A DNA stretch of 64,000 nt, taken from assembly GCA_003024785.1 (NCBI GenBank), contig PUQB01000143.1, forward strand, positions 62,001 through 126,000. Reading direction: 5' to 3'. The notes under the pieces were generated by a model. The model saw only the letters and a list, made by a program, of their open reading frames with translations, did no database searches and had not been told where the DNA came from. The stretch is from Selaginella tamariscina. Taxonomy: Eukaryota > Streptophyta > Lycopodiopsida > Selaginellales > Selaginellaceae. The translations under genes were made by a program, and so were the position numbers. Positions 9,143-61,616 of this stretch are shown in pieces. Each line of letters starts with the position of its first letter. Within the stretch, counting starts at the first letter, position 1.

Positions 9143-11583
9143 CATAGTTACCGCGAACTTTTCCGACCTACAAACCCGACCTAGCCGACCTAGGTTGCGA
9201 CAGTTTAAAAAAATTCCCGACCTAGGTTGGAGGTTTCAAAAGATAAAAGATAAAGAAATGTAAAAGAAAATAAATTAACATAATTCCAAATACAAAAAAA
9301 AATTAACTTACATCATAAAAAAATAAAAAACTAATAATCTAACTCGGGCTCAGCCACTTCTTCTTCCATGGTTTCTTCATCATCCTCCTCTTCATGTTCT
9401 TCTCCTTATATTGGAGCTTGAGGAGTAGTCACTACTTCAGGATTCATTTCTATATTTTCAAAATAATCTTGTAAATCAACAAGTCTCTGCCACTGAGGTT
9501 CAAGTTCAAGTGCTTTTAAATCAATCTCAGTATATGTGCAACCATCTCGTTCAACACGTTCTAACAAACGTGTGTTTGCATGAATAAAAACCAACATTTT
9601 TAAGTTGGATGGTAGCAATCGATTACGTCGTTTTGTTTGTATCAAGTTCCAACTACTCCAATTTCTTTCACAAGGAGAAGCACACACTCCTTGGCTCAAT
9701 AAACGAAAAACACACTTTTGTAGCTCTGGCATAGCATTCCCATATCTTTCCCACCAGCTCACACCTGTTCTCATCATCTTTGAACGCCTAACAGCTTCAT
9801 CACTCATACTAACATTCTCACGTCTTCGAAATTTCCCCCATTGGTTATCAATTTTGTCATAAAGTTCCATATCCCCTTGACAATATCTACGTAAGTATTG
9901 AAGCCAATTTTCAGATGCCATCCCATTCAATGGTGTGATATCCATATATGCAGGATGCACTGCATAAGCTGCTCCATGCAAAATAGAATGCATCATATCC
10001 CAACGTGCAGGTCGTCCACCATGACGTTCCTTCATAATGGCCTTGATGCTTACTATTTTGTTAACACACAGTATATGTTCATTAGCAACATTATCTAATC
10101 CTTCCATCATACGTTCCATCGCCTCATAAATTAAGCCACTAGTAGCACCCTCTCGATAGCAAGCCTCAACACCTTCAATTAAAACAAGAATCTCTTGACA
10201 ACTATCAAGAAATGCATCATTTAAAATTCGTCGTCGGATGCGCAATCCAGTAGCTGTTTTTGACCATTGTGAAGAGTTCCACTCATCACTAACAACCATC
10301 TTCCGTAAACCATTCAAAATCTCTGGGTGCATCAGTTGTGAAATCACTATAAACATATATGCAAATCGTGTTTCTGCATGTTTCAAAAGCTCCCTTAAGC
10401 TGAATTTCCGGAATAAGGCAAGCAACCGTGGCTTTTTTGTAATGTACGAAACAATCTCTGTACAACTTTCTATGATCGGAGTTGCTCAATCCAATCTTCC
10501 AATATCCTCCAATGCCAAATCCAACACATGGCATACACATCGGCCATGTAAGATATGAGGGAATTCTTGTTGCATTAAATTCCCCATAGCCACACAATTT
10601 GATGCATTATCCGTCACAATTTGCACCACATTTTCCACACCAACTTCCATGATCACTTCTCTCATTTGTTCCCAAAGCCAAGCTCCTGTTTTTTCGACAC
10701 CACCACTATCAATAGCTTTCCAAAATACGCTATCTTGAATAGATGTCACCATGAAGTTGATTATAGCACGCCTCCGAATATCAGACCATCCATCTGTGAC
10801 AATGGTGCAACCATACTTTGTCCATCCCTCTCGAAATTGACCAAGTTTACGATGAACTTCTTCATATTCTTCCTTAAGATGTCTTGTTCTTAAGGATTCG
10901 TAACCAAGTACTCGTGCAGAAGCTCCTGGGTCAGCTTCAGAAATTGCTTGCACCATTTTATTCATGCTTCTACTCTTAATGACATTGAATGGAATTGCAT
11001 TGGCATAAAAGAACCTCCGAATTGCATTATTCATCAATTTATACTTTTGATCGTTGAGCATACTAGGGACAGTTCCCTCCCCAAAGCTTCTTTTTCTAGA
11101 TCCAGAAGGGTTGCTTGTTGTTGAAGGCCCAACTCTATCAGATCCCATGCTTGATGCAGATGCCTCTTGCATATGCCCACTCTGGGCATCTGCTGTTAAC
11201 TGTGGAAAAGTAGATCTTGCTGCATTCTTCACATTTTCTGGCACATTTGGTGAATGACAACAATCAATACTATAGCCAGGAACTCCTCCAAGGTGCGCTT
11301 TGATCCTTTGTGGCCCTCCTCCATACTCATTTCCACAAAAATTACATGTCCATCTAGATACACCTTTACCTTTGGCAAATTGCCTTAACTTTTTTTACAT
11401 ATTCCCATGCCCAATCATCCTTCATGATGGTTTGAATGCACAAAAGTCCCTAAATCCTGCTCAAATTGCTATCTGTTGATTTCTTTAGGGCTTTTTTTTA
11501 GGGCATTTTTTAATTTCCAAACAATTCCGACCTAGGTCGGAAAAGTTTTAAAAAACCACCGACCTAGGTCGGTGGTAACTATG
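9143..11583 (-). mobile_element. hAT-superfamily DNA transposon
   Basis: The ends are CATAGTTACCGCG (9143) and its imperfect inverted partner CACCGAC...GGTGGTAACTATG (to 11583). The 8-bp target duplications are AACAGCTC (9135-9142) and AACAACTC (11584-11591), differing at one base, as expected for hAT. Subterminal copies of CCGACCTAGGTCGG sit at both ends (about 9163-9230 and 11527-11573). The only gene is the transposase below. The element sits inside Copia RNase H. Confidence 0.93.
9406..11425 (-). pseudogene. hAT transposase with BED zinc finger, DUF659 and dimerisation domain, frameshifted
   Basis: The likely start is MKDDWAWEYVKKV at 11425. After a one-base shift in a T run near 11390 comes a BED-type zinc finger (WTCNFCGNEYGGGPQRIKAHLGG). 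A frame of 252 codons (11244-10486) follows with a DUF659 catalytic region (TIVTDGWSDIRRRAIINFMV, IVTDNASNCVAMG, CVCHVLDLALEDIG). The frame then shifts between about 10490 and 10430, and the remaining 339 codons (10425-9406) contain LLKHAETRFAYMFIVISQL and the hAT dimerisation signature CASPCERNWSSWNLI...RNRL. The protein would excise and reinsert the element. At least two frameshifts make this copy non-autonomous, unless they are sequence errors. Confidence 0.88.
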
Positions 11584-12773
11584 AACAACTCCATCTCTCG
11601 GGTCAAACTCAATTGACCATGGTTGACTCTTCCATACGTGAGACTGAAGCTTGTTGTACCTCACAAGTACCTCATGATCCGCTTCACTGCAGACTAGTGA
11701 GCTGCTCCTGGATTCTCTAGAAACCTGGAGACTACTCCCACTGCAAATGCCAAGTCTGGCCTCGTGGAAATGGCAAGATAAATCAAACACCCGACTGCTT
11801 GTCGATAGGGCATTTGGGCCATCTCCAACCTCTCCTCCTCAGACTGCAGTTGTTGCAAATGATTGAGCTGAACGTTGGTTTCCATGGGAGTACTAACTGG
11901 CTTGCAATCATGCATGGAAAACTTGTGAAGAACCTCCTCCACGTAGTGCTTCTAAGAGAGTTGAATGATCCCCGTTGCACGAGCTCGGATGATCTGAATC
12001 CCCAAGCAAAAGGACAGTGCTCCAGCTGCTGAGATTTCAAATCGTGAGTGGAAAGCTTGCTCAATATACTGAACCAAACCAATCTCACTAGCAGCCATTA
12101 TGTTGTCATCCACATATAAGGGTAGAAGCACAAATGCCGAGCAGTGATGGAAAACATATATGTTCCCATCAGCAAAGGTTTTCCTGAAACCAATAGAGAT
12201 GAGAAAGCTATCCACGTGCTTGTACCATGCTCTCGGGGACTGTTTGAGCCCGTACAAGGCTCGCCGAAGACGACAAACTTTGTCTTCCTGTCCTGGCTGA
12301 ACAAAACCTTCAGGTTGAGAGGTGTACACCTCCTCTCGAAGCTTCCCATACAGGAAAGCGGTCTTCACATCAAGCTGGTGGAGTTCCAAGTCGTGGCTGG
12401 CTGCAAGCCGAAGAAGGAGACGAATTGAAGTCATCTTTACCACTAGTGAAAACGTCTCCGAGAAATCTACACTTGCAAGCTGGGAAAATCCTCTAGCCAC
12501 AAACCTGGCTTTGTAACTGAGAATCTCGCCTTGAGCATCCAGCTTGCGTTTGAACAACCACCGAGTACTCACCAGCTTGCGACCTGCTGGAAGTATAACC
12601 AAATCGCAAACTCGGTTCTTCTGAAGCGACTGGAACTCCTCCTTCATTGCAACCTTCCACTGAGCTGCTTCATTCAAGTTGGAGAGCTTCACACACTGTT
12701 TGAGGCTCTTGAGGCAACTTGCTGGCATTGCCAACTGCAGTGAAAAACATGTAGGAAGACTCCTCTGCTTCAC
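11584..12773 (-). pseudogene. Copia reverse transcriptase region of pol
   Basis: On the minus strand I see LVSTRWLFKRKLDAQGEI, QLDVKTAFLYGKLREEVYTSQ, CRLRRALYGLKQSPRAWYK and the catalytic PLYVDDNIMAASE, which are the diagnostic Ty1/Copia RT blocks. Next comes the linker to RNase H (VGCLIYLAISTRPDLAFAVGVVSRF). A frame break near 11950 separates the RT block from the linker. The hAT insertion truncates the 3' side. Confidence 0.92.
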
Positions 12774-14290
12774 GAGCTTGCTGGGATTTGTAACTCACTC
12801 TCCCACTTTGCGTGATTGTGTTGATGGGACGAGTTTCTGGTGTTGGAGCCACCACTGGTGCTCCCTGCACCTCTGCTGGAGCTGGAGTATCCACTGGAGC
12901 TCCATGCACCAGCTCTGGAGCATAATCCAGCTCCAAAGTTGGAATCTGCTCCTCCTCCTGTGGAGCATCAATGAAGAGGTTGAGAAGTGAGCCCTCTTCA
13001 AAGGGATTTGTTGAGTCCTCAATGAAGGAAGATCCTAGAGTTCGAAAGGCCGGTTGATTTTGCTCAGAATTTTTAAAAACTTGAGAATCTTCTTGTAGAT
13101 CTGGGGTTTGTGGTTCCTGATGTGGTACAACCAGTGGAGCCTGAGGGTCTTGCGAAGCTTGAGCTGGTGGAGCCCGTACCTGGGCAACCTGAGAGTCATC
13201 GCTCTCCTCCTCCTCGAGAAGAACATATTCCACCAGATTAACTGCAACCCTAAACTGATCCTTGTAAAACCAATTCTCATTAAATTGTACATCTCGACTA
13301 ACAATAAGTGTGTTCTTCTTCTCTGGATTAATCAACCTATGCGCCTTGCTCTCATGACAATATCCTGCCATGATGCAGCATATACTCTTGGGCTCCAACT
13401 TCCTGTGAAGAGCATCCGGAACATGAGCAAAAGCCATGCACCCGAAAACTTGGAGATGCTTCAAACTTGGTCGATGCCCAATCCAGTGTGTGAAGGGAGC
13501 CTCTCCACTTAAACTCGACGAAGGAAGAAGGTTTCTTATATAACCTGTGGTGTTCAAAGCCTCCCCCAGTAGCTGAGAGGTGCTCCTGCATGTATTAGCA
13601 TGCAACGTGTGCTCTCCATCAAGGTGCGATTCATACGTTCTGCTACACCGTTTTGTTGAGTGGAGTAAGGAGCTGTGTACTGTTGCTAAATCCCAACCTC
13701 ATTGCACAACTGCACAAATTCTCGAGATCGATATTCTCCTCCTCGGTCGCTCCTGAGAACCTAAATCCTCAGCCCACTCCACACATTCTCTGCTGCATTC
13801 TTGAAAGTCTTAAAACTTTCAAGAACCTCTGACTTCAAATGCAGTAACTTGAGGACTATGTAACGTGTATAATCATCTATAAACGTCACAAAATACCTCT
13901 TCTTGCTTAGAGACTGAACATGCATGGGCCCGCAGACATCAGAATGCACCAACTCCAGTGGTCGAGTCATTTTATTGTAGATGCCCGAACTGGGGAATGG
14001 CTGTCGATGCTGACGACCAAATGAACAAGCCTCACATAACTGGAGACTCTCTCCCACAACGTGTAGCTCCTCAAGATGAGCCTGATCTTGAGCTACTGCC
14101 TTGATCGCAGCTTCATGAGCATGTCCAAGTCGCATGTGCCAGAGTTGAATGCTGCCTCGTTTGGCTAAGAAAGCTTGTTCTTGCTGAACTACGAGCTCGG
14201 CATCAAGCTTATACAAGCTAGCATATCTAAGGCCTCTAGCCAAATGAACTCCTTGCTTGTCTGTGTATGTAATGCCTGTTTCATCCACAA
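12670..14290 (-). pseudogene. Copia GAG-pre-integrase and integrase region
   Basis: The minus strand contains a GAG-pre-integrase/HHCC zinc region (LWHMRLGHAHEAAIKAVAQ, LCEACSFGRQHRQPFPSS). The integrase core follows (LVHSDVCGPMHVQSLSKKRY, FVTFIDDYTRYIVLKLL), then its C-terminal part (LLGEALNTTGYIRNLLPSS, FGCMAFAHVPDALHRKLEPKS, AHRLINPEKKNTLIVSRDVQF) and a Glu/Pro-rich linker. A frame break at about 13610-13760 removes the stretch between the two core aspartates and the catalytic glutamate. The solo LTR at 14302 separates this segment from the protease. Confidence 0.9.
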
Positions 14291-14301
14291 CTCCTCACAG
14301 A

Positions 14302-15186
14302 TGTCAAGCCACGATCCAGGAACCAGGAAGTGAGCAGGATTTCGAGAACATGAAGGCTTGACTCAGGAACCGGATAAGGAGTAGGATAGGAACTTGGAAC
14401 TCAGGAACAGAACAAGGAGTAGGACAAGGAACAAGATAGGAACTGGAGCAGGATAGCAGGACAAGGAGCTGGATAGGAACCGGAGCAGGATAGCAGGACA
14501 AGGAGCAGGATAACAAGACAAGGAGCTAGATAGGAACAGGAGCAGGATAGGAACCAGAGCAGGATAGGAACTAGGAACTTAGGAGTAAGACATGGAGCAG
14601 GATAGGAACTGGAGCAGGATAGCAGGACAAGGAGCAGGATAGGAACTGAAACAGGATAGCAAGACAAGGAACTGGATAGGAACTAGAGCAGGATAGCAGA
14701 ATAGGAACTGGGAACTCAGGAATCAGGAGCATGACATGATTCAGGAGCGAGACAAGAACATGACAGGATCCAGGAGCAAGACAGGAACAGGATAGGATCC
14801 GGGAGCAGAATAAGATTCGAGAGCAAAACAAGAGCAGGAGGCAAAGAGCGAGACAAGAATGAGACAAGAACAAGAAACAAGAATGATCGTAGAATGACTG
14901 GTGTTGATTGTAACTGATTGTATAACAATTAGGTCGGAGCTTTTATGCTCACAACTCCAAGCTAATCTAGTCATGAGTCTAATCTAGTCATGAGCTAAGA
15001 ATAGTGTCCCTTATCCTCTAGGCATATCCTGTAGCATATCCTATAGGCATATCCTATAGGAATATCCTATAGGTATATCCTGTAGGAATATCCTGCAGGC
15101 ATATCCTGTAACCCGTATCCTGTATCCGAAATCCTGCATCCTGTATTCTGTATCCGGAATCCTGTATCCTATATCGGGTTGTGACA
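14302..15186 (-). repeat. Solo LTR of a Gypsy element
   Basis: The 885-bp segment begins TGTCAAGCCACGATCCAGG and ends GGGTTGTGACA. It is flanked by ACAGA (14297-14301) and GCAGA (15187-15191), a 5-bp target duplication with one change. Removing the LTR and one TCTGC copy restores an open Copia frame (VDAGL-RG-VVDETGITYTDK on the minus strand). Its near twin at 61030-61608 is the 3' LTR of the Gypsy element at the window end, which identifies the family. Internally it holds degenerate tandem repeats of GGAGCAGGATAGGAACT (about 14330-14880) and of ATATCCTGTAGGC/GTATCCTGTATCC (15010-15175). Confidence 0.9.
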
Positions 15187-15436
15187 GCAGACCGGCATCT
15201 ACAATCTTGCCCATTGAGAACAGAGTATGGCTCAGGAGAGGAACGTAGAACATGTTCTGGACCTTAACCACCTCACCACTAGCCAGGCGAATTTCCACTG
15301 TGCCGACTCCAGCAATCTCCATTGGTGAACTTCGGCTGTCTCTAGAAATCACACCATCTTGCTTAGAGAGAGCTCGAAAAGTTTTGAACGCGGAGAGAAC
15401 TGGTGTGTAGTGGCTGGTTGCGCATCTATCATGCAA
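15187..15436 (-). pseudogene. Copia protease region
   Basis: The minus strand reads ATSHYTPVLSAFKTFRALSK, then a central block (GVISRDSRSSPMEIAGVGTV) and VQNMFYVPLLSHTLFSMGKI, the Copia aspartic-protease region between gag and integrase. The residues before ATSH are damaged (DRCATSH instead of a D-S/T-G-ATSH site). The 13.8-kb element is inserted exactly at this active site. Confidence 0.88.
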
Positions 15437-15457
15437 GTTGTAACTAAAATGGGCATG
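15437..15457 (+). repeat. Left terminal inverted repeat of the 13.8-kb element
   Basis: GTTGTAACTAAA followed by ATGGGCATG. It pairs with 29172-29192 with one mismatch (A/G at position 13). Confidence 0.85.
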
Positions 15458-15917
15458 GCTATAGTCCCATTTCCTAATAATTAGCAATTTTAGCTATTTA
15501 ATTAGCATTTTCTAATATTAAAGGAATATTCTTTAGAATATATGTTTGAAAACAAATATTCTTTAGAATATTCTATTTTGTATTCGACCCTTTAATAAAT
15601 TATAGCATTCATTGAACAAAAATTAATAACATTATAAAAGTAGAAGGTATTAAATTATATAATATATTGCCTAATATAACAATTAAGGAAGAGCATAAGA
15701 GGTACATTATATAAATATTGATGTTGTTATTAAAATATTAATATTTAAATATAACATTATTAATTAAAAATTTGTAGTAGTAATATATATATAATATAAA
15801 ATCCTATAATAATATAGTCAATCTTCCATATCTTTTTTAAATTTATATAGTTAAGTAAACAATTTGGTACTATTATTAAAGAGTTTATAATAATTATGAA
15901 TATTAAATATATGATTT

Positions 15918-18900
15918 TTATAATTTTGTAATTGCTTTAAGCTTCAGAAAACATACATTCCCTTGCAGTTTTGTTAATGTGACTTTATCAACGCTTCTTG
16001 ACATCCACCCATATCGAATGGATTTAACATTTATAAAACATGCTGGGTCTTTTTGATTGGGAGACCATGTTTTCTCTAGGCATCCATTATATCTTTCGCT
16101 CTCCTTCTCGTGTCGCCTTTTTTGTGGTTTGAACCATGCAACCTTAACAATACTATTTTTTGTGATTACTTCAGGTGTGTCGATAATTTGACCCATCCAA
16201 ATAGGCTGATTATATGACGCATCTGGAGTAATGAGAACCATCATTAGTTTTTGAAGATCCTGGCAGCAATCAAAGTATGCTTTAGGTTTTTGGTTCCTTT
16301 GTCCAACAAAGTGTGGGGTTTGCACTTCCACATCACTACTGGCTTCTATGTCGTCTGTGCTCAGTGATGTCATTTCAATCTCCTCTCGCCACCTTGTTTT
16401 AGGCCAAAAAGGGTGTTGCAATTCTGTACTTGTGACAGTAGGCCCTTCCAACTCTCGAACAACAGTTCCCAATAGTAACCACATGCTTATATAGTTCTGA
16501 GTAACCAGTTGCCTTATCAGAATTCTTTGGCATCGATTTTTGAACCCATGCCACATATTTTTTGATGCCATCAATAATAACCTCTTGTTCCTTGAGCTGG
16601 GCACTCAATGGAATAGGGTCTGGTTGTCCTTCTGGAGAAGTGGCTTTCCATTCTCTCCACTTTTGAAGAGCATTAACCCCTCTTTGGTAACCACTCATGC
16701 TCTGATGGCCGTAACTTGTACTGCATAATAGGTATACCATCTCGTATAGAGAAAAAGAATTGTAGCGGCACAAGGTGACCAACTAAAGAATCACTCCCCT
16801 CTTTTATATACTCCTTGAGAAATTTTTTGAAGTCTGGCACCTCAGTCACAAGCAAAGCACAACTTTTTTTGGAGATGCAGTTTTCAAAAAGATTCATCAT
16901 ATGCGGTAAGGTAAGTGCACTTGTCCTTTTTGTAGAGTTGGAGACCTTGCTGAAGAACGCATCAATATCTTCATGAGTGTGACCAACCATAAGAAAACTG
17001 AGCGTGATTGTTTCAAACACACCTTTGGCAACAAGCATTGACAAGTATGCTAGCACATATCTAGAAAATAAAAGTAAGTATGAGCTTGAGAAACCCTTAA
17101 GTAAAATGATTTACCTATTTTGTTCTCGCCTGCACAATTATCCATTGTAAAAGCAAATGACGAGGAAGCTTATTTGATGTTGAGGACACATGTACACTAT
17201 TTGAGCTAGATCCCTCCACTGAACCTGAACTCTCAACAGGGCCATCTGTTTTTTGTGCAGGTTGCTGACAATGCCTCTCATATTCCCAAGTAGCCTCAAG
17301 TGCAGACGTGTTCATGAGAGCATTATGTAAAGGTTGAAGGTGTTGTTTCTTACTTTGAGATCACTGATAGGACTTGTCTGTGAGTGGGCTTCAAGGTTTC
17401 TGAAACACATGGCCAACGACCCAATAGTGAAATTGGAGTCGCTAGACCAATGTGGAAGTGAAAAGTGTCCATATGACTCACAACCGTGTCCATGTGTTAG
17501 CACACCTGTCAATGAAATCGGAAGTTTCATGACATTTCCAAGGCACTTTGGTGTTGCAACGAGCTTTGGAATGCTGGTCTTTGAATGATCCATCTTGTCA
17601 TGGATCAAGCACAGGTACTCTGATGGGCGTGACACAGAAAGCATGCGGTGTGCATAGTACTGAGACCGGCAAGTTTGTTGTGCAATCATGTGGGCCTCCA
17701 TCTTCTTTTGAATGGCAGTGATCTCCACCAAGGTTTTTGCACAAGCCTCTGCAGCCTTCAATGATGTACAAGTGTCACACTTGGAAAAGCTAGAGTGTTT
17801 TGCAATCTCCACATCCTTAAAATGAGTATTCCATATGTTGTTGAAGGTACCAGTGCAGATTGCTTGCAGCCCCATCAACTGAGGCACTTGTTCACATGTT
17901 CACACAGCTTCAATTGAGTGTAGATGAAGGCAAAACCTTGAGATTTTCCCTGACCCCTGCATTTGTGGTTCGGCATTTGTGAGGCATCCTGTCTGCATTT
18001 GCTTCCACAAAAGCCTTGAGTATCTCTATGGCTGCCATAATGTGAGAGCGGGTTTTGACCAACCGAGTGTTCCCATGTACTGAGGTTCGCGCTCCATCTA
18101 GCCACTCATCCCTCCGACGGTAGAACGTGGTCTTTGGGATCCCGTATATACTGTACCAAGCTTTGAAGCAGATGGCCACCTTATTAAATACCATGGATGT
18201 ACTCTGATAACCTGTGTCCGAGCCATTCCATCAATACACCCAGTTAGTGCAGCATATACAAACTCATGCCTTTGCTTTTGGGTGAGCGTACGAAAGACAT
18301 GTCTACATTGGGTAATTTCATTCCGGTCTGCCATCTGACAACACTTCTTCTTGCAGCAGTCAATCGTGGAAATGCTCGTAACACTTTCGGAAGATGTAGG
18401 ATCCATCTTACCCTCTTGCTGAAACTTGCAGGGGAAGATCTGCAACCCATGAATCGCCTTTTTCTTACAATAGGACCAATGCAAGGAACCTCTTCAAATA
18501 TGAGTTGTTCTTCCGGGTTGTTATTATTGAAATCCAACCCAGAATATGTTGAACCATCTTGCCGTCTTAATTCAGATGTTCGCCACCTCACGAGGGATCC
18601 AGGATGCAAAGTGCCATTAGGTGAAACCTCTGTCACAACTACACCCACGAAGTCGGACCCTAGTTTCTCTTCTGACACTGCTTCCATTGGATTTATAGCT
18701 GTGATGATGCCTCTCCCAACCTCAATCTCATGAAGAAAGAGAATCACCTCATCCATCACAGCAGGCAAGCCATCATCTGGAAAACTCGTGCTACTGTTTG
18801 TTTGTGACTCTGTATATTCTGTGTCAGCCTTGACTTCATCCAAATTCCACAATACAGGAGAACCCTCCTCAAATTCCATTCCGGAACCTCAACATGCTTG

Positions 18901-19055
18901 AAAATGGTGTTCACCCATACGTACACACAAGATCCTTGGGCAATATTGTGACATGATGCATTATCATCTCGAACTTCCACAGTTCCAGTGCCAACTATCT
19001 CGTTGTTCCGAAGAAGACATATTTTATCTCCAGTATTATACATATTGTCCTGCAC
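15918..19055 (-). pseudogene. Candidate DDE-type transposase (DUF7869-like), broken frame
   Basis: Conserved blocks fall in several minus-strand frames, in order. They are: GDKICLLRNNEIVGTGTVEV (about 19020); a second N-terminal block (18879-18490); a CCKKKCCQMADRNEITQCRH block with FVYAALTGC (about 18350-18240); an HTH-like segment IYGIPKTTFYRRRDEWLDGA with VHGN (about 18150-18080); a Cys cluster FSKCDTCTSLKAAEAC (about 17780); YLCLIHDKMDHSKTSIPKL (about 17600); DNCAGENK (about 17130); and FLMVGHTHEDIDAFFSKVS (about 16950). An intron at about 17061-17114 fits. The DKMDHSKT, DNCAGENK and HTHEDID blocks resemble the DUF7869-like proteins seen in mosses, lycophytes and oomycetes. I infer that the three acidic motifs are an RNase-H-fold D-D-E/D site. 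Several frameshifts are present. The function is inference; the family resemblance is from memory. Confidence 0.65.
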
Positions 19056-19195
19056 ATAAATAATTGTGTTATTTATGATATCTGTTTATGCATATTTTTA
19101 AGAAATCATAACTGCGGTTGCTTAATAATATGCATGTGCAATAATACATAATTATGTATAAAGATAATATCTCATGCTTTATTAATACAACTGAT

Positions 19196-19950
19196 GGGCG
19201 GGATTAATCCGCCACGACTCCTCGACGGATGGCGGATTAATCCCGCCGCGACTCTACCCCTTCGGAGTGAGTCGGGGATTAATCCCGCGACTCTACCCTT
19301 CGGAGGAGAGCGGGATTAATCCCCCGACTCCCATCGAAGGAGCGGGATTAATCCCGCCGCGATCCCTCGCGAGGAATCGGCGGGATTAATCCGCGCGGAC
19401 TTCCTCGTCGGAGAGAGCGGCGGGATTAATCCCGCGCAAATCCTCGACGAGGAAGAGGGGGCGGGATTAATCCCGCCACAACACTCGAAGGAGAATAGGC
19501 GGCGGGATTAATCCCGCCCACAACTCTGACGACGGGGAATAAGCGGCGGGATTAATCCCGCCCACAACTCTCTCCGAAACTATGATTTTAAAGAGATTCG
19601 GGATGAATCTTACCCACAAATATTTAAAACAGGAAGTGGTGGCGAGATTAATCCCGCCACCCCTTCTCTGCCTCCTAAAATGGTTGGCTAAATTAATCCC
19701 GTAGATAACTCTTTTCAATAAATTTAAATAACTCTCTATCAGTTGAGAGAGTTATCGGCGGGATTAATCCCGCCGCTCTTTTTAAGAGGAAAGCATTGCC
19801 CGACTAATTCTCATAGCTATCAAAGAGATGGTGGCGGGATTAATCCCGCCACTTCTTCAAAGAGGGAAAAAAAATGGCCGGATTAATCCCGCCGCCCGGC
19901 TAACCGAGAATATTAAGTTAGAAGTATATTTAAACGGGATAAATCCCTAA
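19196..19950. repeat. Palindrome array A (GGCGGGATTAATCCCGCC)
   Basis: About 15 good and 3 weak copies of the 18-bp perfect palindrome GGCGGGATTAATCCCGCC occur at intervals of about 35-70 bp. Spacers are unlike each other except for repeated CGACTC/CTCCGAAGG motifs in the first 350 bp. The array starts 140 bp upstream of the candidate transposase gene. Copies decay toward the right end (for example ACGGGATAAATCCCT at about 19935). Confidence 0.93.
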
Positions 19951-20498
19951 CAAATATATTGTAATCCTAATGCATTCCTAAATCCCTAAATTCTAAAATT
20001 TAAGAGAGAATGTAAGAGAGTGAATCTTTATAAATATATTTATAATTACTTATAAATAGCACTGAAGGCGCCGTGCTTTCCTATAAACAATAATGCACCC
20101 AATTTAATGTCGCTCCTGAGCTGATCACTAAAAGAAAAAAGAAAATCTGAAGAGTGAAAATAAAGAAATGAAGAAATCCTTGCTGGAGAAAGAACCAGAT
20201 CTGAATTTGAGTGGGAAATTAAATGCATTTTCAAATTTACATGTCAAACTAAAAATACTTATGTCGGAAATTTGAAATTTTTTAAATAATAGAAAAGAAA
20301 ATTTAAGATGAGTTGAAACAAATAACCGACAGTCTGACATATATACTCTCCAATTCCAATAAGTGTTTTAAAATTGCATTTAATGTCATTCAAGTGCTTC
20401 AAGCTGTTTAATATTACGAAATTTTTGTAATTATTTTATATTCTTAATATTCAAGTATATATTATTAATTATATTATATATATATATATATTATATAT

Positions 20499-20542
<44 letters not shown>

Positions 20543-20559
20543 TAATACAATAAATAATT
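19951..20559. other. AT-rich spacer of the 13.8-kb element
   Basis: No gene was seen. The stretch is AT-rich and ends in a (TA)n microsatellite at about 20470-20540. Confidence 0.7.
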
Positions 20560-21290
20560 GATATATTATTATGTATCATTTAAAATATATTCATAGTCTG
20601 TTTATTATTATTATTTTCTTAATTACTCGAGTAATTAATTTACATTTCCTACTATTAATGGGATATTCTTTATTATTTTCTTAATATTCAAAGAATATTC
20701 CAATATTAAACCTGATTATCATAATTAAATTAGTCTTATTCTTAAATATTTCTGTAATTATTCCACATTTGTATATATTAATGGGATTTTCTCAATTAAT
20801 TTGTTATTATTTCAAGAATATTCCTATGTTAAACCTTATTATCAATATTAAATTAATATATATTATTAAAACTATATATGACTATATATTAGATAAAATG
20901 ATGTATTATTATGTATAATTTAAAATATGTTCATAGTGTGTATATTAATATCATTTCTTAAATACTTGAGTAATTAATCTTCTTTATATTAATGGGATAT
21001 TCTTTATTTTCTTATTATTCCAAAATATTCCAATATTAAACATGATTATCATAATTAATTTAGTTAATTATTTTAGTACTTGATCTACATTTGTATATAT
21101 TAATGGGATTTTCTCAATTAAATTCTTATTATTTCAAGAATATTCCAATGTTAAACCTTATTATCAATATTAAATTTATATATTATTAAAACTATGTATG
21201 GCTATATATTAAATAAAATCATATATTATTATGTAAATATGTTTATAGTGTGTTTATTAATATTATTTTCTTAATTATTCGATGTTTGTT
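20560..21290. repeat. AT-rich tandem duplication, period about 360 bp
   Basis: Two full units and a partial third share blocks in the same order: TATTATTATGTATCATTT, then ACTCGAGTAATTAAT, then ATTAATGGGATATTCTTTA, then ATTCCAATATTAAACCTGA. Unit 1 starts near 20560, unit 2 near 20915, and a remnant lies at about 21225-21285. A shorter internal repeat of the TTAATGGGATTTTCTCAATT block lies at about 20790 and 21100. Confidence 0.8.
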
Positions 21291-22530
21291 TGCACACATA
21301 TATAAACACAATCATAAATTTATATATACACGTGCACACGCATTAGAAGCACTTACAGAGACACATATGCACACACATGCACATTGCCTTAAACCAAACT
21401 TGAGAAATATATGTGGCTTCTTTATTAAGAAACATCATGTTTAACGCATGTATGATCTATATGTACTCAGTCTGTGTGTATGTAACACATTGAATTTACA
21501 CATGTAATATATATGTATATCTGTGTGTATACACGTGTGTATGTATATATGTGTACTAATATATGCAATGTGTACGATTTTCATTTGTTAACACTCTATC
21601 TCTTCTCTTATACATACACAGTATAACCATGCATAATCCCTTCTCTCATACATACACACCATGCATGATCATGATCCATAATATGTAGCTTGTCTCTTCT
21701 CTCATACATACAACCATGCATGATCCATAATATGTACTGATGTTACAATATTATGTATTATGTATAATGTATATCTGTGTATAACACTCACTCCTCTTAT
21801 ACATAAACACCATACATGATCCATCCTAACCCTAAACCCTATGTAACACATTGAATTTACACATGTAATATGTATGTATGTCTGTGTGTATACACGTGTG
21901 TGTGTATATGTGTGTACTAATATATGTAATGTGTATGAATTTAATTTGTTAACACTCTCTCTCTTCTCTCATACATATATACACATCATGCATGATCATG
22001 TACTCTATCTCTCTAATATTAATATGTACTAATATGTATGTATGTCTATGTGTATAATACTATGTGTGTATATATGTATCGCTGCACGTGAAACTTTAAA
22101 CTCTCATGGACACACACATGTTAAACCCCTGCATGATTTTTATTCTTGGGGTGTATGTGATACCCACGCACATGCACACGCTGATAATATAATGAAAGAA
22201 TATTCGTTTAGGGCGAATCTATAGTTTATTCTTTTTAGGGTTTAAGTATATTCTTAAAAAGAATATTCGATTAGGGTTAATATATATTCTATTTCTTTTA
22301 GGGTTTAGGTATATTCTTAGGGTTTTAAGAAGTAAGGCGGCGAAGGCGGTAGCTGTGAAATCTCCTTCTCTCTCACACACACATGTGAGATCTCTCTCTC
22401 TCTCTCACACGCACACTCCTGAGTTTATTTTTTTTTATTCACATATATATTTATATGTGTGTGTATCTTAATAATATAATTTAGATCTCTATCTCTCGCA
22501 CACACACACACACTCGTATACATATACACA

Positions 22531-22566
<36 letters not shown>

Positions 22567-22592
22567 TATATATATATATATAATATATATAT

Positions 22593-22626
<34 letters not shown>

Positions 22627-22934
22627 CTGTGTGACACACACACACACACATATATATCTGTGTGTGTTTGTGTTTGTGTATCTGTATAATTTTATTAATT
22701 TATTAATTTTATCTCTTGCACACGCACACACACTCCTGTTTATCTGTATGATTTTATTTGTTTTGCTCACACACGCAATTACTCACAATATACACACACA
22801 CACACACACACAACACACACACACACACAACTATATATATACTAATATACATATAATATACATACATATATTATGTGTACCAGTATCTGTATAATTCTAT
22901 TTATTTATCTATTTCTCGCACACACACGCACACT

Positions 22935-22974
<40 letters not shown>

Positions 22975-23345
22975 TATACATATATATATGTGTGTGTTTG
23001 TTTATCTATATGATTTTATTTGTTTCACACATGCATACACACGATATACATATACACACACATATATATATATACCTGTGTACATATATACATACATATA
23101 TTATGTGTACCAGTATCTGTTAATTTATTTTATTTATTTATCTCTCGCACACACACGCACACTCCTGTATATACATATACATATACATAAATATACTATA
23201 CATATATGTGTATGTGTGTGTATCTGTATAATTTAATTTATTTAGCACACACATACGATATACATATACATATACATATGTGTGTGTATGAGTATAATTT
23301 TATCTGATTTGTCTATCTCTGGCACACACACACACACACATGCAT
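21291..23345. repeat. Low-complexity core rich in TG/CA and TA microsatellites
   Basis: There are long (TA)n runs at about 22530-22630 and 22935-22990, (CA)n at about 22790-22830, and many ACACAC/TGTGTG tracts. A block starting ACACATTGAATTTACACATG occurs twice, at about 21487 and 21845 (period about 360 bp). Short open frames here are repeat translations, not genes. A Copia- or Gypsy-unrelated 80-bp block at 22081-22162 recurs at 51476-51560. Confidence 0.85.
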
Positions 23346-23360
23346 ATATATGTGTGTAGC

Positions 23361-24098
23361 GGCGGGATTAATCCCGCCGCCCTTCAAGTAGGCTATTCAG
23401 TTAGCCTCATTGCGGCGGGATTAATCCCGCTGCATACGCATGCCTTGTGCAGAATCGGGGGGATTTATCCCACTGCCAAAGGCCTGCCTGAAGGGCTTAG
23501 GCGGCGGGATTAATCCTGCCCGATTCCGTGCAGGGCATTGGCGTCCGGCGGGATTAATCCCGCTGCCCTGCGCGGAATCGGGGGGATTAATTCCGTCGCG
23601 AAAGGCCTGACTGAAGGGCCTAGGCAGCGGGATTAATCCCACCTGATTCCGCACAGGGCATTGGCATCCGGGGGATTAATCCCGCTGCCTAGGGACCGAG
23701 TGAAGGGCTTGGGCGGCGGGATTAATCCCACTGAGCCTTCAATGCCTGTTGGAGGGATGAATCCCGCCACCCTTCCCTTTTTTCTTCATTGGTGAGTCGG
23801 ACCAATCCCAAACGTTTCTGTCTGGAACATAGAAGGTTTACAACATACCAATGGAGGGGACTGGGAAGGGTGGCGAGATTCATTTCACCATCCCTTACAT
23901 GGTGGGCGAGATTAATCCCGCCCCTTTCTAAAGTCACTGAAGGGGTGTGCCAAATAAATTCTGCCAAGTTCTCTCTGAGACCGAGAAGGGTGGCAGGATT
24001 AATTTCGCACTCCCGTTCAAGGCCTCCAGAAAGGTGGCGAGATTAATCCCGCCCACTCTTTCAGGAGGCATTGAAGGGGTGGTGAGATTAATCCCGCC
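23361..24098. repeat. Palindrome array B (GGCGGGATTAATCCCGCC)
   Basis: About 16 copies occur, the first perfect and most with one to three changes (GGCGAGATTAATCCCGCC is common near the right end). Within the array a unit of about 120 bp is duplicated (about 23455-23570 and 23575-23690), with shared spacer text GGCCTGACTGAAGGGC and CAGGGCATTGGC. The array ends 335 bp before the first codon of the plus-strand gene, so each array sits upstream of one of the two divergent gene groups. Confidence 0.93.
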
Positions 24099-24210
24099 GC
24101 CCTTCCATGTGAATATATATGTGTATTAGTATATATAAGTTGCATATCTCACTTTATTTACTTTTTCATCTTATCATAATATTTCTAGTAAAAACTAGGA
24201 ATCTATGTAA

Positions 24211-24298
24211 AACTGTCCAGAGCTCACATTTTGTGGTGGTTCTAAAACAAAATGTTATCTTTTTTTTGCACTAGCACAAATGTGAGCTTTGGACAGTT
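24211..24298 (+). repeat. Hairpin-forming inverted repeat
   Basis: The arms AACTGTCCAGAGCTCACATT and AATGTGAGCTTTGGACAGTT pair over about 25 bp with one or two mismatches around a loop of roughly 40 bases. It lies in the presumed 5' leader or promoter of the ParB/methyltransferase-like gene. It could be a small MITE, a small-RNA precursor or a regulatory stem-loop. Confidence 0.75.
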
Positions 24299-24431
24299 AA
24301 TTCCGTCCACTTCTCTCTATGTATTATTTTTGTATATTCGGGTTTATACAAGTGTGTGTGCGTTTTTATATGATTTGTATTCATAATATATTATTTTGCA
24401 GAAGGACGATTTAATTAAACAAGGAGTTAAT

Positions 24432-27400
24432 ATGAAGTCGTCGTCAAATTCTGGGTAAGAATTAAAATAAAATCTGTTATACTCGGATATGTGCTTGAAT
24501 TAATCATTTTTGTATTCAGATGTGGAATTGAGGTGACATTGAAGACGAGAGCATGAGAAGAGATGGGCAGGGGATTCTAGAATCAACTTGGCCATATTTT
24601 AAACTAAACGGGAAGCGCATTGGAACAACCATAGTTGCTGTCAAACTAACCTCTGTCACATCGCATGGCCAAGCAAAACAATGGAAAGTGGGTGTGATAG
24701 TCAAGCATCCGAAAGCATGCTATGAACCTAGATTGAACGATGCTTGACACATAGCCTTGTTCCATCCAATGTCACGTTCTCGGATCCAGAGGTCGCCAGT
24801 TACAACATTAATTTCGGGTGGTTTTCGACTTGTGGATAATGACGTTCACGTGTTCACTAATGATGTTGACGTGGAGTTCTTCTTCAACTCAACGAAAGCC
24901 CATCTATGGAGGGGATCCAACTGGATGTCTACTTCGAAGATCTTCAGACTCATCGAGTAGGTGTATTCTCAGGAGATATTGCTTCACAATACAGAAAATC
25001 ACAAGTGGAGCAATCGTCCCTCTTCACATTGAAGAAGAACACAGCGACATCATAAAGGAGATTGAGAGGGTGGCTTGGTCTCAGGTTCTTTACAGATCAC
25101 GTTCAATTTGCTTAGAAATTTGGGAGCTGGAAGAGTGTGAGAACATTAGAACAGCATCAATCGGGGATCACACATGTTGATTCGGATCGTAGAAGAAAAT
25201 CCTTGATCGTTTTGTCAGCTGCACCTGTGGCATCCCATGCTGCAATAAGCCACAAGGAAATGATGTTGGATGATAGGATTTACGAGTGTAGGGTTAAGTA
25301 TTGCAGCGTCAACCCAAACTTCAATTACAGGCCACTCAACCAGGAACGTGTAGCTGAGCTCATGGAGAAGATGAAGGACGACAATTCTTACACCGTTCCA
25401 CATAATGCTGTCCATACTACGAGAGAAACAAAGGCGGACAAAGCACACCGGAACAAATGAGGAAGGTTCAGACGGAGAATAGAAAATTATAAGTACTACA
25501 TCATTAGTGGCCAGCACACAATACGGCAGCCCAACGACTTCTCGACAACACAACAAAGGAACGATGGCAACAAAACTTTCGAGCATACCCGTGAGAAGCT
25601 GACAAAAAGATCGGCGTTTTTAGTGAAGCCGAATCTCACAATCGAGCAGTACCATAAGTTATCGGCGAATGGGACGCTGCAGACACCAACCACTACAACA
25701 GCAAAAATGGGAGAAGTTCAAACACACGCGAGCCGTGTGGGAATCTCTTCAGCGACCACAAAGAGCTACCGCAGGAAATACACAATCTGCGGACTACCGG
25801 GTAAGCAAATTGTTTGGGCGGGATTTATCTCGCCGGTATATTAATCTGTCTTTTTTTTCAGAGAGTTGAAGAAATTGTAGCAGTTGATTTTGCCCAGGTG
25901 GGCGGGAAGGAAACATCCTTTTTGATGATGTTGATTTCTTGTCCCGAGGATAGGATCTTTGCCAAATGGTTGGGGATTATGGAATCCTTTGCAAAAGGAA
26001 CACTGAAGAAGAAGCAGACAAGTGAAGAGGAGCCCTCAGAGAAGTCTGCAAAGAAACCCAGTAAGACGCCGAAGTCTAAGTCTGTTCAATCTATAAAGGA
26101 TGTAGACAACGATTTCAAGCTCACATGGTTGAAGCCTTTAAATGGAACAACGATGGAGGAGATGGAAGTCTTGGCTGATTTGGTGATTGATGGCAAATTA
26201 CAGATTAACAACAGCAGCCCACCTCTCCTTTTCATCTCAAGGCAATGGAGTTGAAGACGGTCAGGCACTTCAAGGAGTGGTTGGGAATACACTGCCACAA
26301 ACTGGGTTGGACCTCGGCTTCAACATACGAAGAGGTCAGGAAATATTTGCATGTGACAAACGATGATATGCTTGTCGAATGGGTGAATCAATCGGAAGAT
26401 CTGGGCAAGAATCTATTGCACGCCAACGCCAAAAAGGAGAACATTGCGATGACGCCTTCTCTTATGGCAGTCCTTCAGCAGCGGAGAACCGAGTTGAACC
26501 TTATAAAGGAGGATGCTACGAATCACGACAAGCCCTACAGATGTTTGTTGTTGGATTCGGAGACTTTATGGGGTACCATCACTGCTTGTAGGAAACCGTT
26601 TCAATTGTTCGTGATGGATCGGCGGGTGTCAAAAAATCCTTCGACAGACAGGACATAGAGGATTTGGTGGAGAAACTTAGCCGTGCAAGCATGTACAAAG
26701 AAGGTATTTATTATTGAATTCATACTTGCACTCTTGACTGATATCTACGTTTTCAGGTATTTATTTCTTGATTCTTGCTCATGTCACCGATACCTTTGCC
26801 TTCGCCTTTGCCAAGAGGAATAAACATCGTTGGACAGGATTTTATATGAATGATGCTGATCCGAAGTGCATTGATTCGGTTGTTCACTTGGTTGTTAGGA
26901 ATGCGCCAAACAATTTCAAACTTCCAAATGACTGGAGGCATCTGTTTGCACTCCAACGGCCCTGAACCTCCATCCGATACACCGATAGCTGAGAGTGACG
27001 TATTCGGCAATGTACGTTATCCAAACATTACAAGTCAAGCGGCACGGAGCATCGTCAACTTGATCAGGGGTCCTCACAGTGATGCGTGGGTTTTTGACTA
27101 CTGCACTAGGGGGTCCGTCTTGAAGGAGTGTTACCTTCGGGATACATGTGTGTTTGCCGTTGAAAAGGATAAGACCATGGTTGAGGACCTGAACAAGTGG
27201 ATAGAGAGGTTCTCAACTGATACCCCAACGAAACCATAAGGAGTATTTGAGAAAGTTCCCTCCGATAAGTGCGATAGCTCTGAAGACGAATCTGGTTCAA
27301 TGTCGGAGTCTGAGGACGAACTTCAATCAGATATTAGACCGGAAGTTATCTCGAGGAGTACAGAAATTCACACTCCATTACCCATGGAAACATCAATAGA

Positions 27401-27510
27401 AGATAGAAGATCTTGAACCATCTCACAAGCGGCTTAGACCTTCTTCGCCTCACTCAGAAGGTAATAGCGAAGAAGAATTGTTAATGAAGAGTGACGAATA
27501 GTTGTAAATG
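24432..27510 (+). pseudogene. ParB-like plus amino-methyltransferase-like protein, frame-broken
   Basis: The first exon starts MKSSSNS (24432), with a GT-AG intron before CGIEVTLKTR. Later blocks shift among frames. A ParB-like segment at 25280-25560 reads VNPNFNYRPLNQERVAELME...KYYIISGQHTIRQP, matching the ParB/Srx-type layout 'N-x-R-x-L...RV..L' and 'YxIIxGQH'. The 25814-26260 block contains AVDFAQVGGKETSFLMMLIS and a Lys/Ser-rich linker. The 26245-26700 block has HFKEWLGIHCHKLGWTSAST and DRQDIEDLVEKLSRASMYKE, then an intron (about 26705-26757) and IYFLILAHVTDTFAFAFAKR, which resembles the region after motif IV of beta-class N4C/N6A methyltransferases. WVFDYCTRGSVLKECYLRD...FAVEKD (27085-27165) resembles motif I (D-x-F/C-x-G-x-G ... 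E-x-D). The expected DPPY is seen only as LLLDSETLWG. The tail LEPSHKRLRPSSPHSEGN ends at 27501. The function is inferred. Confidence 0.6.
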
Positions 27511-28009
27511 AGTGTAACATAAGGCATTTTTGTATATTTCGTTTATATTTGTACAGAAAATAAATTCTCAAGGATTAATGAAGCTTTTAGTTCAAACATG
27601 GGTCACACATTAACAAGGTAAATAATATACCTTGATAATTTTAAGGTCAGCTAATTATCATTTTGCAGATGTAATGAAACAATTGAGAACATGGATTTTC
27701 AGCATTGCATGAGGTAAGAGAGGGGTTTGGCGACAATTTCTTGTGCCACATGTCAGAATGACAGAGTTCATGCAGGAAATGGATAATAATGCAGCTCAAA
27801 ACATCGTTACCATGGGGGCCACTTCAGTTTTTCATCATCATTTTATTGGCTTCAGTTCCGAAATCAATTTCTTCAGCGCATGCAATATCTGAATCTTGTA
27901 AGGATGATGTACAATTAAATGATAAGGGATAGGCAACGAGATAGTGTCAACGGATAAATGTGAAAGGGAGCAAACAAGTGATTTGCAAAGTATTCAAGAG
28001 GCAACGCTA
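27511..28009 (+). other. Spacer between the two plus-strand genes of the 13.8-kb element
   Basis: The first 150 bp look like a 3' UTR (AT-rich, TGTA motifs). No confident coding block is visible before the HAD segment, though its first exon probably lies within 27930-28009. Confidence 0.5.
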
Positions 28010-28636
28010 TCCATGTTACTCATGGCCATATTGTGTTGTTGGATGTCAATGGTGTTCTGCTTCATCGACAAAGGCCCGAGGATAGGAAAAAAAAATCAAA
28101 CAAGGAGATTTCATTCCTTGTCATGGTAAATTTCGATATGATATTATTTTTCGTCCAGGGTTGGATCGTCTCTTTCAAAAGCTTAAGGAGATGGGTGCGC
28201 TTGTGGGGATTTGGTCATGCATGCAGATTCATAACTTAACACCGCTGTTGAATTTGCTTAAGAAACATTGTAGTGTTGCAGAAGAGGTGATTCGTAAAGA
28301 TTGGATTTTTGACCAGCGAATGTGTTATAAACCTCTCGAATTTCACAATATAAGAAAGGAAAGCAAGCCATACTTCTTCAAGAATGAAAGAATAATTGGG
28401 TCATGGGGAGATCAGTCGCTTAAGGATAATGAAGAATGCACATATCTTAGTGGTAGACGACTCTCCTCAGAAGGCTATGCTCAACCAAAACATTGCTTGT
28501 ATTCATCCAATCACTTTCGATCCATATTCTGATACCGATATCATGGATGAGCTAGTGAACTACTTGGATACGTGCCTCAGAAAGAAGAATCTCGAAAATT
28601 TTGTGAGCAGTATCCACCGTATCAACATTTCCTGAA
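28010..28636 (+). pseudogene. FCP1/NIF-type HAD phosphatase-like protein, frame-broken
   Basis: Blocks in order are: GHIVLLDVNGVLLHRQRPED (about 28023), matching the DxDG/N-type motif 1 of plant NIF/TIM50-like HAD proteins, where DVNG is usual; FRPGLDRLFQKLKEMGALVG (about 28154); IWSCMQIHNLTPLL; WIFDQRMCYKPLEF; KPYFFKNERIIGSWGDQ; and ILVVDDSPQKAMLNQNIACI (about 28445), with the DD of motif 4, then ITFDPYSDTDIMDELVNYLD. The family dephosphorylates the RNA polymerase II C-terminal domain or related proteins. Frame changes at about 28130-28155 and 28440 could be one short intron and one frameshift. Its place inside a transposable element suggests capture of a host gene. Confidence 0.68.
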
Positions 28637-28773
28637 GCTTTTCTTTCTCGTGATTTTGAATTTTATAAAATGAAGGATAGCAACCGGGCTTTATAATATT
28701 ATTCTTAAGGAACGTCATTTTTAGATGAGCCTTTATGCAGACCTGGTCTTATTACATCTTATGTATTAACAAG

Positions 28774-28896
28774 GATGGCAACTCCCAATTGCATTCGTGA
28801 GAGTGTTAAGGGTGGCAACAACATCAAGATATTGACCAAAATGATTAATCCGGAGAGTGATGATTTAGACAAAATGATTTCTCTGTATGGTTAGGA
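28774..28896 (+). other. Short open frame near the right end of the 13.8-kb element
   Basis: A 40-codon frame, MATPNCIRESVKGGNNIKIL...DDLDKMISLYG, ends in a stop at 28894-28896 and is preceded by open sequence from about 28740. It may be a last exon of the HAD gene or chance. No family is recognised. Confidence 0.3.
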
Positions 28897-29171
28897 AGAA
28901 AGTATTTATAAATAAATTAACATGTTGATAAGAAATGATTTCATTTGTAATTATGTTTGATAGTATTTCTTATTATTGTAAACTATTTTTAGAATAATAT
29001 GAATATTCTAAGATATTTTAGGAATATTCCTTACTAAGTAAGGTTATTGAAGGATTAATTAATTAATTAATTAATATTTAAGGCTTAATTACATATTAAT
29101 TAAATGATTAATTAATAATTAAAACTTAAGTATTAATTAGTAATTTATTTTATATTCCCATTTTCACGTAT
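28897..29171. other. AT-rich subterminal region of the 13.8-kb element
   Basis: Very AT-rich, with a run of TTAATTAATTAATTAATTAA at about 29055. No gene is seen. The left subterminal region (15458-15917) is similarly AT-rich and empty. Confidence 0.7.
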
Positions 29172-29192
29172 CATGCCCACTTTAGTTACAAC
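29172..29192 (-). repeat. Right terminal inverted repeat of the 13.8-kb element
   Basis: CATGCCCACTTTAGTTACAA plus a final C. It is the reverse complement of the left end (15437-15457) with one mismatch. Confidence 0.85.
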
Positions 29193-30274
29193 GTGCATTA
29201 CTAGCCACAAGACAAGCTGAGCTTGAGGCAAAAATTGCTTGCAGGAACGAGTCCCAGCACAACCTTGGAGCATTCTTCCTCTCACTTGCACGTGGTTTTC
29301 CTGCAGCCATGTCTTGGCAATTCTTCTTCAAATGCCCCATCTCCTTGCACCAGTTACAAGGCCCGATCTTGCTTGGAGGAAAACTCTTGCTACTGGCCTT
29401 TGATGTCCCGAACCAAAGCACTACTCCCGCCACTCTTCCCAAATTGGGGAGTGGAACTGGACTTCTTTTTCGCCTGCTTACCCACCATGTAAAGAGCATG
29501 AGGTGCATCCAAACTGGACGATCCTCTACTACCATTGGCATGCTCCTCACCTGGAGTTTCAGGATCATGATTGATCACAGTTGATTGCAGTGTTGCAAAC
29601 GTCAAGTTTGCTGTGTTCTTCAACGTGGTTTAGCTGCTCAGATCTGGGCAAACCAATGTTCCAAGCAACACTGTAATCTTGTTTACATCTAAAACCTTCT
29701 CTCCAAGAGCTGAAAGCTGAGTGATCAACGACTTCATTCTCCCCAAGAACTGAGAGGCCGACTCTGAAGGTTCCAAACTTTGAAAAATCGTCTTCAATGA
29801 AACGACTGAGCTATTCCCACGCGCTTGATTGCTGAAAATAGTTTGCAACTTTGTCCAATTCTTTGCAGCCATTTTCGTCAAATCAATGATGATGATGCAA
29901 ACGTCCAAGGCTAATGCCCATCCTGACAAGGCCTTGTCATTTTGCAGTTCCCAATCTTGGGGATCCACTACAGGTTTCTTTTCCGAGCTATTAGCAACTC
30001 GAAGACTATTGTCTCTCGTCATCACAAAAGAGATCTCACGCACCCAATTTTCAAAGTCACACCACCAAAGATTGAGATTGGAAGAGCCTTATTAGTAAAC
30101 ATTGCGTCCAGAATCACAAACCAGCCATGTTTGGAAAAAAAAAAGGCACTCAGCCCGCAGCTGCTCATGATGGTTACGTTCTTGAACTCGAGAAGCAACC
30201 CGAAGAAAGACGTCACTTGGATGTTGCTTTGGCCATGCTCGCTGTTGCCCCACATGGATCTTCTTCGGCTCTGA
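29193..30274 (-). pseudogene. Copia gag with zinc knuckle
   Basis: From right to left the minus strand reads: MVSEPKKIHVGQQRAWPKQH just after the primer site; SWALALDVCIIIIDLTKMA; SVVSLKTIFQSLEPSESASQ; FLGRMKSLITQLSALGEKV (the UBN2/gag helical region); and the CCHC knuckle CNWCKEMGHLKKNC, followed by basic residues. Several frame changes are present (about 30045 and 29625). The segment ends where the 13.8-kb element enters. Confidence 0.88.
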
Positions 30275-61608: not shown

Positions 61609-61616
61609 GCACATCC

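Follow-up and report, generated by a model that had tools for sequence, protein, structure and literature searches.

What kind of element has inverted ends, carries a DUF7869 gene together with two further genes and arrays of palindromes, and sits in the middle of a Copia retrotransposon? The question is raised by a 64,000-nucleotide stretch of the Selaginella tamariscina genome (assembly GCA_003024785.1, contig PUQB01000143.1, positions 62,001 to 126,000, forward strand; hereafter the window), in which an initial annotation had described a large element with terminal inverted repeats (TIRs) and an unusual gene set. That description is supported. We consider it very likely that the window contains a member of a class II (TIR) transposon family with a high copy number, and that the DUF7869 protein is its transposase. 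Members of the family have 27-bp inverted ends, 4-bp target-site duplications (TSDs) in about half of the copies, and dispersed insertions; a small deleted copy exists, and three gene groups travel with the ends.

The 21-nt ends, GTTGTAACTAAA[A/G]TGGGCATG, lie at 15437-15457 (+) and 29172-29192 (-) and differ from each other at a single position. The inverted repeat is real, with 20 of 21 positions pairing as had been described; such a pair is not expected by chance (0 in 100 shuffles), and no third match is present in the window even with up to three mismatches allowed. The hexamers next to the 21-nt ends, ATGCAA and GTGCAT, are part of the element and extend the TIR to 27 bp. They had been read as an imperfect target duplication (ATGCAC/TTGCAT), which was wrong, as the hexamers form part of the TIR, and the actual TSD has a length of 4 bp. 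Likewise, the element proposed at 15437-29192 exists and its boundaries were misplaced: based on TIRs, TSDs, empty sites and a restored Pol_BBD frame, its corrected limits are 15431-29198 (13,768 bp, no strand assigned). End comparison and the genome count place the left TIR (A-type end, ATGCAAGTTGTAACTAAAATGGGCATG) at 15431-15457 (+) and the right TIR (G-type end, ATGCACGTTGTAACTAAAGTGGGCATG) at 29172-29198 (-).

The element had also been said to interrupt a Copia protease frame exactly, and joining the flanks directly at 15430/29199 does restore the reading. The Pol_BBD profile scores 55.9 bits on this join, aligned from profile position 1, compared to 48.2 bits for the downstream part alone and 50.3 bits for the join minus 4 bp. 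The broken Copia element itself is marked by RVT_2 (2e-60), gag_pre-integrs (2e-11) and Pol_BBD (1e-12) among the neighbouring regions scanned (9406-11394, 11952-14294 and 15044-15430 (-)). Within it, about 500 bp with TATCCTG-type tandem arrays (14711-15189) are 85% alike to a second copy at 61117-61611, which continues, by eye, into retroelement-like sequence.

Other copies with these ends are abundant. In the host assembly (300.7 Mb, 1391 contigs), the 27-nt end ATGCANGTTGTAACTAAANTGGGCATG occurs exactly 2642 times (1350 on the plus and 1292 on the minus strand; reversed control 0/0), and a 12-nt end, also searched exactly, occurs 2020/1975 times versus 45/52 for its reversed control. We chose element pairs by hand from the listed end positions, with ends facing each other and mostly 7-22 kb apart. 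Forty-two of 100 listed 12-nt end places (contigs C1 to C45) form 21 facing pairs of 10.2-22.3 kb, with a median of 14.4 kb. If this share holds, extrapolation from the 100 listed places would give about 840 such pairs; together they would take up some 12 Mb, about 4% of the assembly.

The TSD was derived from a sample of 30 elements, consisting of these 21 pairs, eight further pairs from 27-mer places, and the window copy. Beside GTTG, nearly all of them have ATGCA followed by C, T or A on both sides, and directly outside this hexamer 14 of the 30 have an identical 4-mer (mean 0.47 and maximum 4 in 2000 deranged pairings). For the first 22 elements the count was 10 (736 derangements, mean 0.47, maximum 3), and the sole other strong signal in the offset test of these 22 was the palindromic TGCA inside the hexamer. 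TGCA was tried as the TSD, since the same 4-mer stands at that offset in 18 of the 22 elements, but it was rejected as both empty sites lack it.

One of these empty sites, that of element L015/L016, lies near 47.51 kb of the window and gives the TSD AAGA. The other is a sequence near 61.30 kb related to the flanks of L044/L045; the right flank aligns from GTAG onward, giving GTAG as the TSD, while on the left side the local alignment ends early in repeats and the final bases ATCGTAG were matched by eye. A third element, L009/L010, sits inside another copy of the same family with the TSD ATTA. The TSDs of family members are thus 4 bp long and of varied sequence, and it is the 4-mers outside the hexamer together with the empty sites that fix the TIR at 27 bp and the element at the limits given above.

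Other arrangements of the ends were seen as well. The A-type ends L008 and L046 (C1:912548 and C1:931156), separated by 18.6 kb, have an identical 20-bp flank, which suggests a local duplication or an assembly artefact. L099/L100 (C84:1363-8034) is a 6.7-kb pair of two A-type ends, both with ATGCAT and without a TSD; it may represent another non-autonomous type or be made up of two separate elements. In L105/L097 (C80:563731 and 563980), two G-type ends point the same way at a distance of 249 bp, which reflects an insertion or duplication inside an element's end.

The internal genes are inherited together with the ends. Neither of the outcomes that would have refuted the initial description, a lack of other copies with these ends or genes that fail to accompany them, was encountered. 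Ten elements, each taken as two halves, all contain both gene groups; their main gene blocks are 92-98.5% identical to the window, apart from one block at 88% that runs into an array. In the later total of 20 left and 22 right halves (window included), DUF7869-gene sequence is present in all 20 left halves, although the second domain part is largely missing from L081 and L087 has undergone rearrangement, and a NIF phosphatase-like gene is present in all 22 right halves. The third gene, referred to here as gene 2, is found in 20 of the 22 right halves, two of which (L061 and L074) lack some 70-130 bp of it; L073, a shortened copy, has lost it entirely, and L078 has lost half of it.

Codon-position alignments were made for 19 copies of DUF7869, 20-21 of gene 2 and 22 of NIF, leaving out L087 (DUF7869), L073 (all gene 2 parts) and L078 (first part of gene 2). 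Singleton variants are distributed flatly over the three codon positions (DUF7869 80/74/69, gene 2 71/68/65, NIF 25/21/31), whereas among variants common to at least two copies third positions are overrepresented, both in DUF7869 (20/7/36, p 9e-5) and in gene 2 (42/44/92, p 3e-7). These two genes were therefore under selection while the family spread, and the pattern is the one expected if functional genes spread and the copies then decayed. Mantel tests were carried out on 19 elements (without L087/L077 and without the C42 and C1:796448 elements, the last two of which were represented by right halves only). On shared variants, in a repeat that followed a test of all variants, DUF_a correlates with gene 2 (r 0.61, 0/5000) and NIF (r 0.35, 9/5000), DUF_b with gene 2 (r 0.41, 2/5000), and gene 2 with NIF (r 0.71, 0/5000). 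The halves of the element are thus linked, with the exception of DUF_b versus NIF, discussed below.

The copies L049-L088 mostly contain several frame-breaking indels and few stops. In the window copy, the two DUF7869 parts have six and five such indels and no stops, the three parts of gene 2 have 15, 2 and 5 indels and two stops, and NIF has six indels. The assembly probably contains many indel errors: the broken frames could stem from unpolished long reads as readily as from decay, and frameshifts by themselves do not justify calling these copies pseudogenes. At least two copies, L067 and L084, show no differences over the compared DUF7869 frames, and the family has probably been active recently.

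One element, L043, is an internally deleted copy of 245 bp with one end of each type and the TSD TTAA. As it lacks the genes and still has ends and a TSD, the ends can evidently move without any gene in cis. This would also be seen if all elements were non-autonomous, with DUF7869, gene 2 and NIF as mere passengers and the ends moved by a transposase encoded elsewhere, and the association of the DUF7869 gene with the ends is one seen at the sequence level. We regard such an arrangement as quite unlikely, because passengers would drift, whereas DUF7869-gene sequence recurs in all 20 left halves examined and was under purifying selection before insertion. Moreover, no other transposase domain exceeded its Pfam cut-off in the frames scanned.

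The candidate transposase gene occupies approximately 15918-19051 (-) in a three-frame reading, with frames broken several times in the window copy and at least one intron, placed by eye at about 17060-17110. The first part of the DUF7869 domain (PF25273, E 6.2e-6) lies at 17315-17899 (-) and contains the motif HDKMD with the first acidic position; the second part (E 1.2e-27), at 16676-17110 (-), contains GHTHEDID with the third. In copy L067 the frames are 585 and 392 residues long. At least 100 relatives were found at E<=0.001, in liverworts (Riccia sorocarpa, Calypogeia fissa), bivalves and many ENA/JGI contigs; the best of them (P0001) is 44% identical over 95% of the query, and another (P0040) 65% over 33%. 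Among 43 aligned relatives from the matches listed, acidic residues are conserved at D88 (38/39), D91 (39/40), D255 (41/42), E or D294 (43/43), D295 (43/43) and D297 (43/43). Thirty-eight residues separate D255 from E294, a DDE/D-like spacing, and the layout suits a D-D-E/D transposase of the RNase-H-like type, in which these residues would be catalytic. The earlier proposal of this gene as a candidate transposase is supported.

Could the element instead be a deviant member of the KDZ (Kyakuja-Dileera-Zisupton) or CACTA/EnSpm transposons? It is large and has several genes, and the N-terminal part of the protein matches Transposase_23 (TNP1/EN/SPM) below threshold (E 0.10-0.26). According to one source, Zisupton makes 8-bp TSDs, Kyakuja has 7-bp TSDs, CA..TG termini and no TIR, and EnSpm has 3-bp TSDs and CAC..GTG termini (PMC12730594); the 4-bp TSD and 27-bp TIR found here fit none of these three. 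The comparison with KDZ and other large TIR families by profile search, which had been suggested with the initial annotation, found nothing of KDZ at E<=1 when frames from two element copies and four relatives were scanned with Pfam, and none of the described transposase families passed its Pfam cut-off with the DUF7869 proteins. We therefore consider this assignment very unlikely, and an undescribed lineage of DNA transposons with a DUF7869 transposase that would itself be catalytic remains our best reading.

Several observations weigh against that reading. Sixteen of the 30 sampled elements have no exact TSD. The window copy is one of them, with the outer 4-mers TATC and TACT, and since the direct join of the Copia flanks scores best, it shows no net target duplication, whether through loss of one TSD copy or because none was formed. 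Among the other 15, L035/L036 gives the impression of nesting or recombination, as its right flank lies in gene 2 of another copy and its left flank does not, and for L001/L002 a 1-base indel, judged by eye, may be the cause. The shared variants of NIF (11/10/15, p 0.19) give no significant sign of selection. When every variant was included, as in the first Mantel test between halves, the correlation did not reach significance (r 0.04, 1717/5000), probably because of singletons, and nor did that of DUF_b with NIF on shared variants (r 0.12, 794/5000); at least one element, L086/L076, mixes subfamilies. In the DUF7869 protein, columns 158 and 260 are also acidic in at least 90% of the relatives, so the triad is not uniquely marked and is our choice, and no PDB sequence matched the DUF7869 profile at E<=1.

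Each of the two gene groups has an array of palindromes upstream of it. The first, GGCGGGATTAATCCCGCC, at 19195-19950, has a period of about 44-45 bp and precedes the DUF7869 gene; the second, at 23360-24110, precedes gene 2. Both consist of the palindrome GGGATTAATCCC and flank an AT-rich middle of about 3 kb with tandem repeats (20250-23250) that differs between copies. The window copy contains 20 exact occurrences of GGATTAATCC, between 19201 and 23719, in line with the two divergent gene groups and intervening palindrome arrays already described. With one mismatch allowed, there are 29 in the element and one in the remaining window. Ten other elements have 7 to 35 exact occurrences each, with at least one per half, and none was found in the loci L001-L008 (24 kb). 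Of 249 spacings, 116 measure 45, 44 or 46 bp, the most frequent values. For a piece of the first array (19335-19575), the predicted single-strand fold is much more stable than those of shuffled sequences (z -12.3). The position of the arrays upstream of each gene group suggests that they may bind a regulator.

Gene 2 (24433-27510, +) has about 1000 codons in four exons recognised by eye, and its frames are open in L053, L065 and L068. No match at E 0.001 or better was obtained in Pfam, NCBIfam or PHROGs. With the longer frames of other copies, the best stray hits were E 0.098 (Pfam) and 0.17 (PHROGs), with none in NCBIfam; on the window fragments, an RDR6 RNA-binding model came closest (0.0011) but stayed under its cut-off, and the stray NCBIfam hits began at 0.029. 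Against the PDB, the best value for the first part was 0.86, and the second part reached 0.014 with a designed repeat protein, no stretch passing alone. A word-based search of 5.8 billion proteins, with sequences of about 350-1120 residues, found no homolog at E<=1 among 7369 candidates, and the broken frames of the window gave none at 0.01 among 6163 candidates.

Gene 2 had been described as ParB/methyltransferase-like, and by eye it does contain GQHT-x-TAAQ after a hydrophobic strand, as well as a late stretch resembling the end of N4/N6 methyltransferases with DPPY changed to DRRV; no tool matched either motif. It might accordingly be a fusion of a ParB-fold protein with an inactivated DNA amino-methyltransferase, captured from bacteria or phages. 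The searches turned up neither a ParB/Srx or N4/N6 methyltransferase profile, nor a PDB entry of any weight, nor a homolog; they lend the description no support, and we consider such an origin unlikely. We treat gene 2 as an orphan under selection.

The last gene, at approximately 27990-28650 (+; open reading frame 28086-28529), is a NIF-type HAD phosphatase-like gene, as the initial annotation of a HAD phosphatase had it. Its match to PF03031 has E 1.9e-5 in the window copy and 8.2e-13 in a longer frame of copy L064, and an element copy scores 48.8 bits against a cut-off of 21.8. A dullard-like domain in NCBIfam reached only E 0.0043, under its cut-off, and no PDB match was obtained at E<=0.01. 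At the usual site of the catalytic DxDx[T/V] motif, the gene reads DVNGV, the second Asp being replaced by Asn.

Taken together, and as far as sequence comparison can tell, the element probably encodes a transposase that belongs to no classified type; it also carries two companion genes, of which gene 2 is an orphan. We propose that the DUF7869 protein, as an RNase-H-like D-D-E/D transposase, would bind the TIRs and cut the element out in a cut-and-paste manner, and that the excised element would then be joined to a target with a 4-bp stagger. Gene 2 and the NIF-like phosphatase would be accessory genes, and both palindrome arrays are predicted binding sites for an element-encoded protein that may control expression or assembly. 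A more far-reaching version, which we put forward tentatively and think doubtful as a whole, is that this is the founding family of an undescribed superfamily with DUF7869 transposases from liverworts to bivalves. It would be represented here by an element of about 14 kb that makes up perhaps 4% of the assembly, with a selected protein without detected relatives acting on the GGGATTAATCCC arrays (in a partition- or replication-like role, or in self-regulation) and a host-type phosphatase tuning host transcription.

DUF7869 is a widespread domain without an assigned function. Its occurrence here in many hundreds of copies with defined ends and a 4-bp TSD allows a transposase role to be tested directly. 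The presence of a selected orphan, gene 2, inside an abundant transposon poses a second open question. A TIR lineage of this kind would also be added to repeat annotation wherever DUF7869 occurs.

Two further features of the window lie outside the element. A hAT-like element is nearby, with Dimer_Tnp_hAT (4e-9) and DUF659 (2e-40) in the neighbouring regions 9406-11394, 11952-14294 and 15044-15430 (minus strand). At 35004-36335 (+), coiled-coil open reading frames resemble flagellar CCDC39/40 by eye, a likeness that would indicate motile cells in the host; the Pfam evidence is unconvincing, the best match being McrBC at 5.9e-6, barely above its cut-off.

In its size of 14 kb, its several genes and its TIRs, the element also recalls an integrated virus or a Polinton-like element. 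Polintons make 6-bp TSDs. No capsid, polymerase or packaging family was present in the frames scanned (Pfam, PHROGs), and DUF7869 was not found in IMG/VR, where none of 142 pattern matches was confirmed. On the frames scanned, a viral or Polinton-like origin is thus extremely improbable. No mention of DUF7869 was found among open-licence papers. In the same literature, nothing fitting was found among the titles and abstract openings listed for TGCA or TSD elements, transposons with ParB or a methyltransferase, TIR elements of liverworts or bryophytes, or NIF-carrying transposons, and the passages of PMC12730594, PMC3706591, PMC6431247 (giant transposons) and PMC8226300 do not describe this combination.

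Eukaryotic DNA transposons with an extra enzyme gene are known, among them KDZ and other TET/JBP-carrying fungal transposons (PMC12730594). The Selaginella element shares with these the possession of an extra enzyme gene, and it differs in transposase and cargo, from Zisupton and Kyakuja in its TSD, and from Kyakuja also in having a TIR. From CACTA/EnSpm it is set apart by the lack of both CAC..GTG termini and a 3-bp TSD (PMC12730594). CACTA/EnSpm transposases also have C(2)C and H(3-4)H motifs between the second D and E, where DUF7869 has just the 38 residues and no conserved cysteine in the 43 relatives. The MuDR, hAT, P, Kolobok and Dada group, in which a C/DxxH motif follows the second D, would have the DDE-type logic in common with the candidate transposase, whereas the 4-bp TSD and the short interval of 38 residues from the second D to E are different; Dada makes TSDs of 6-7 bp (PMC3706591). 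In addition, Dada targets small RNA genes, while the 4-bp TSDs found here are varied and a scan of the window found no Rfam family at gathering score.

Chapaev, Sola and Ginger are families with 4-bp TSDs. They are alike to the present family in TSD length, a likeness that concerns the target site. The closest counterparts at the protein level are the DUF7869 (PF25273) proteins of liverworts and bivalves, which share both the domain and the conserved acidic residues with the protein encoded in the Selaginella element.

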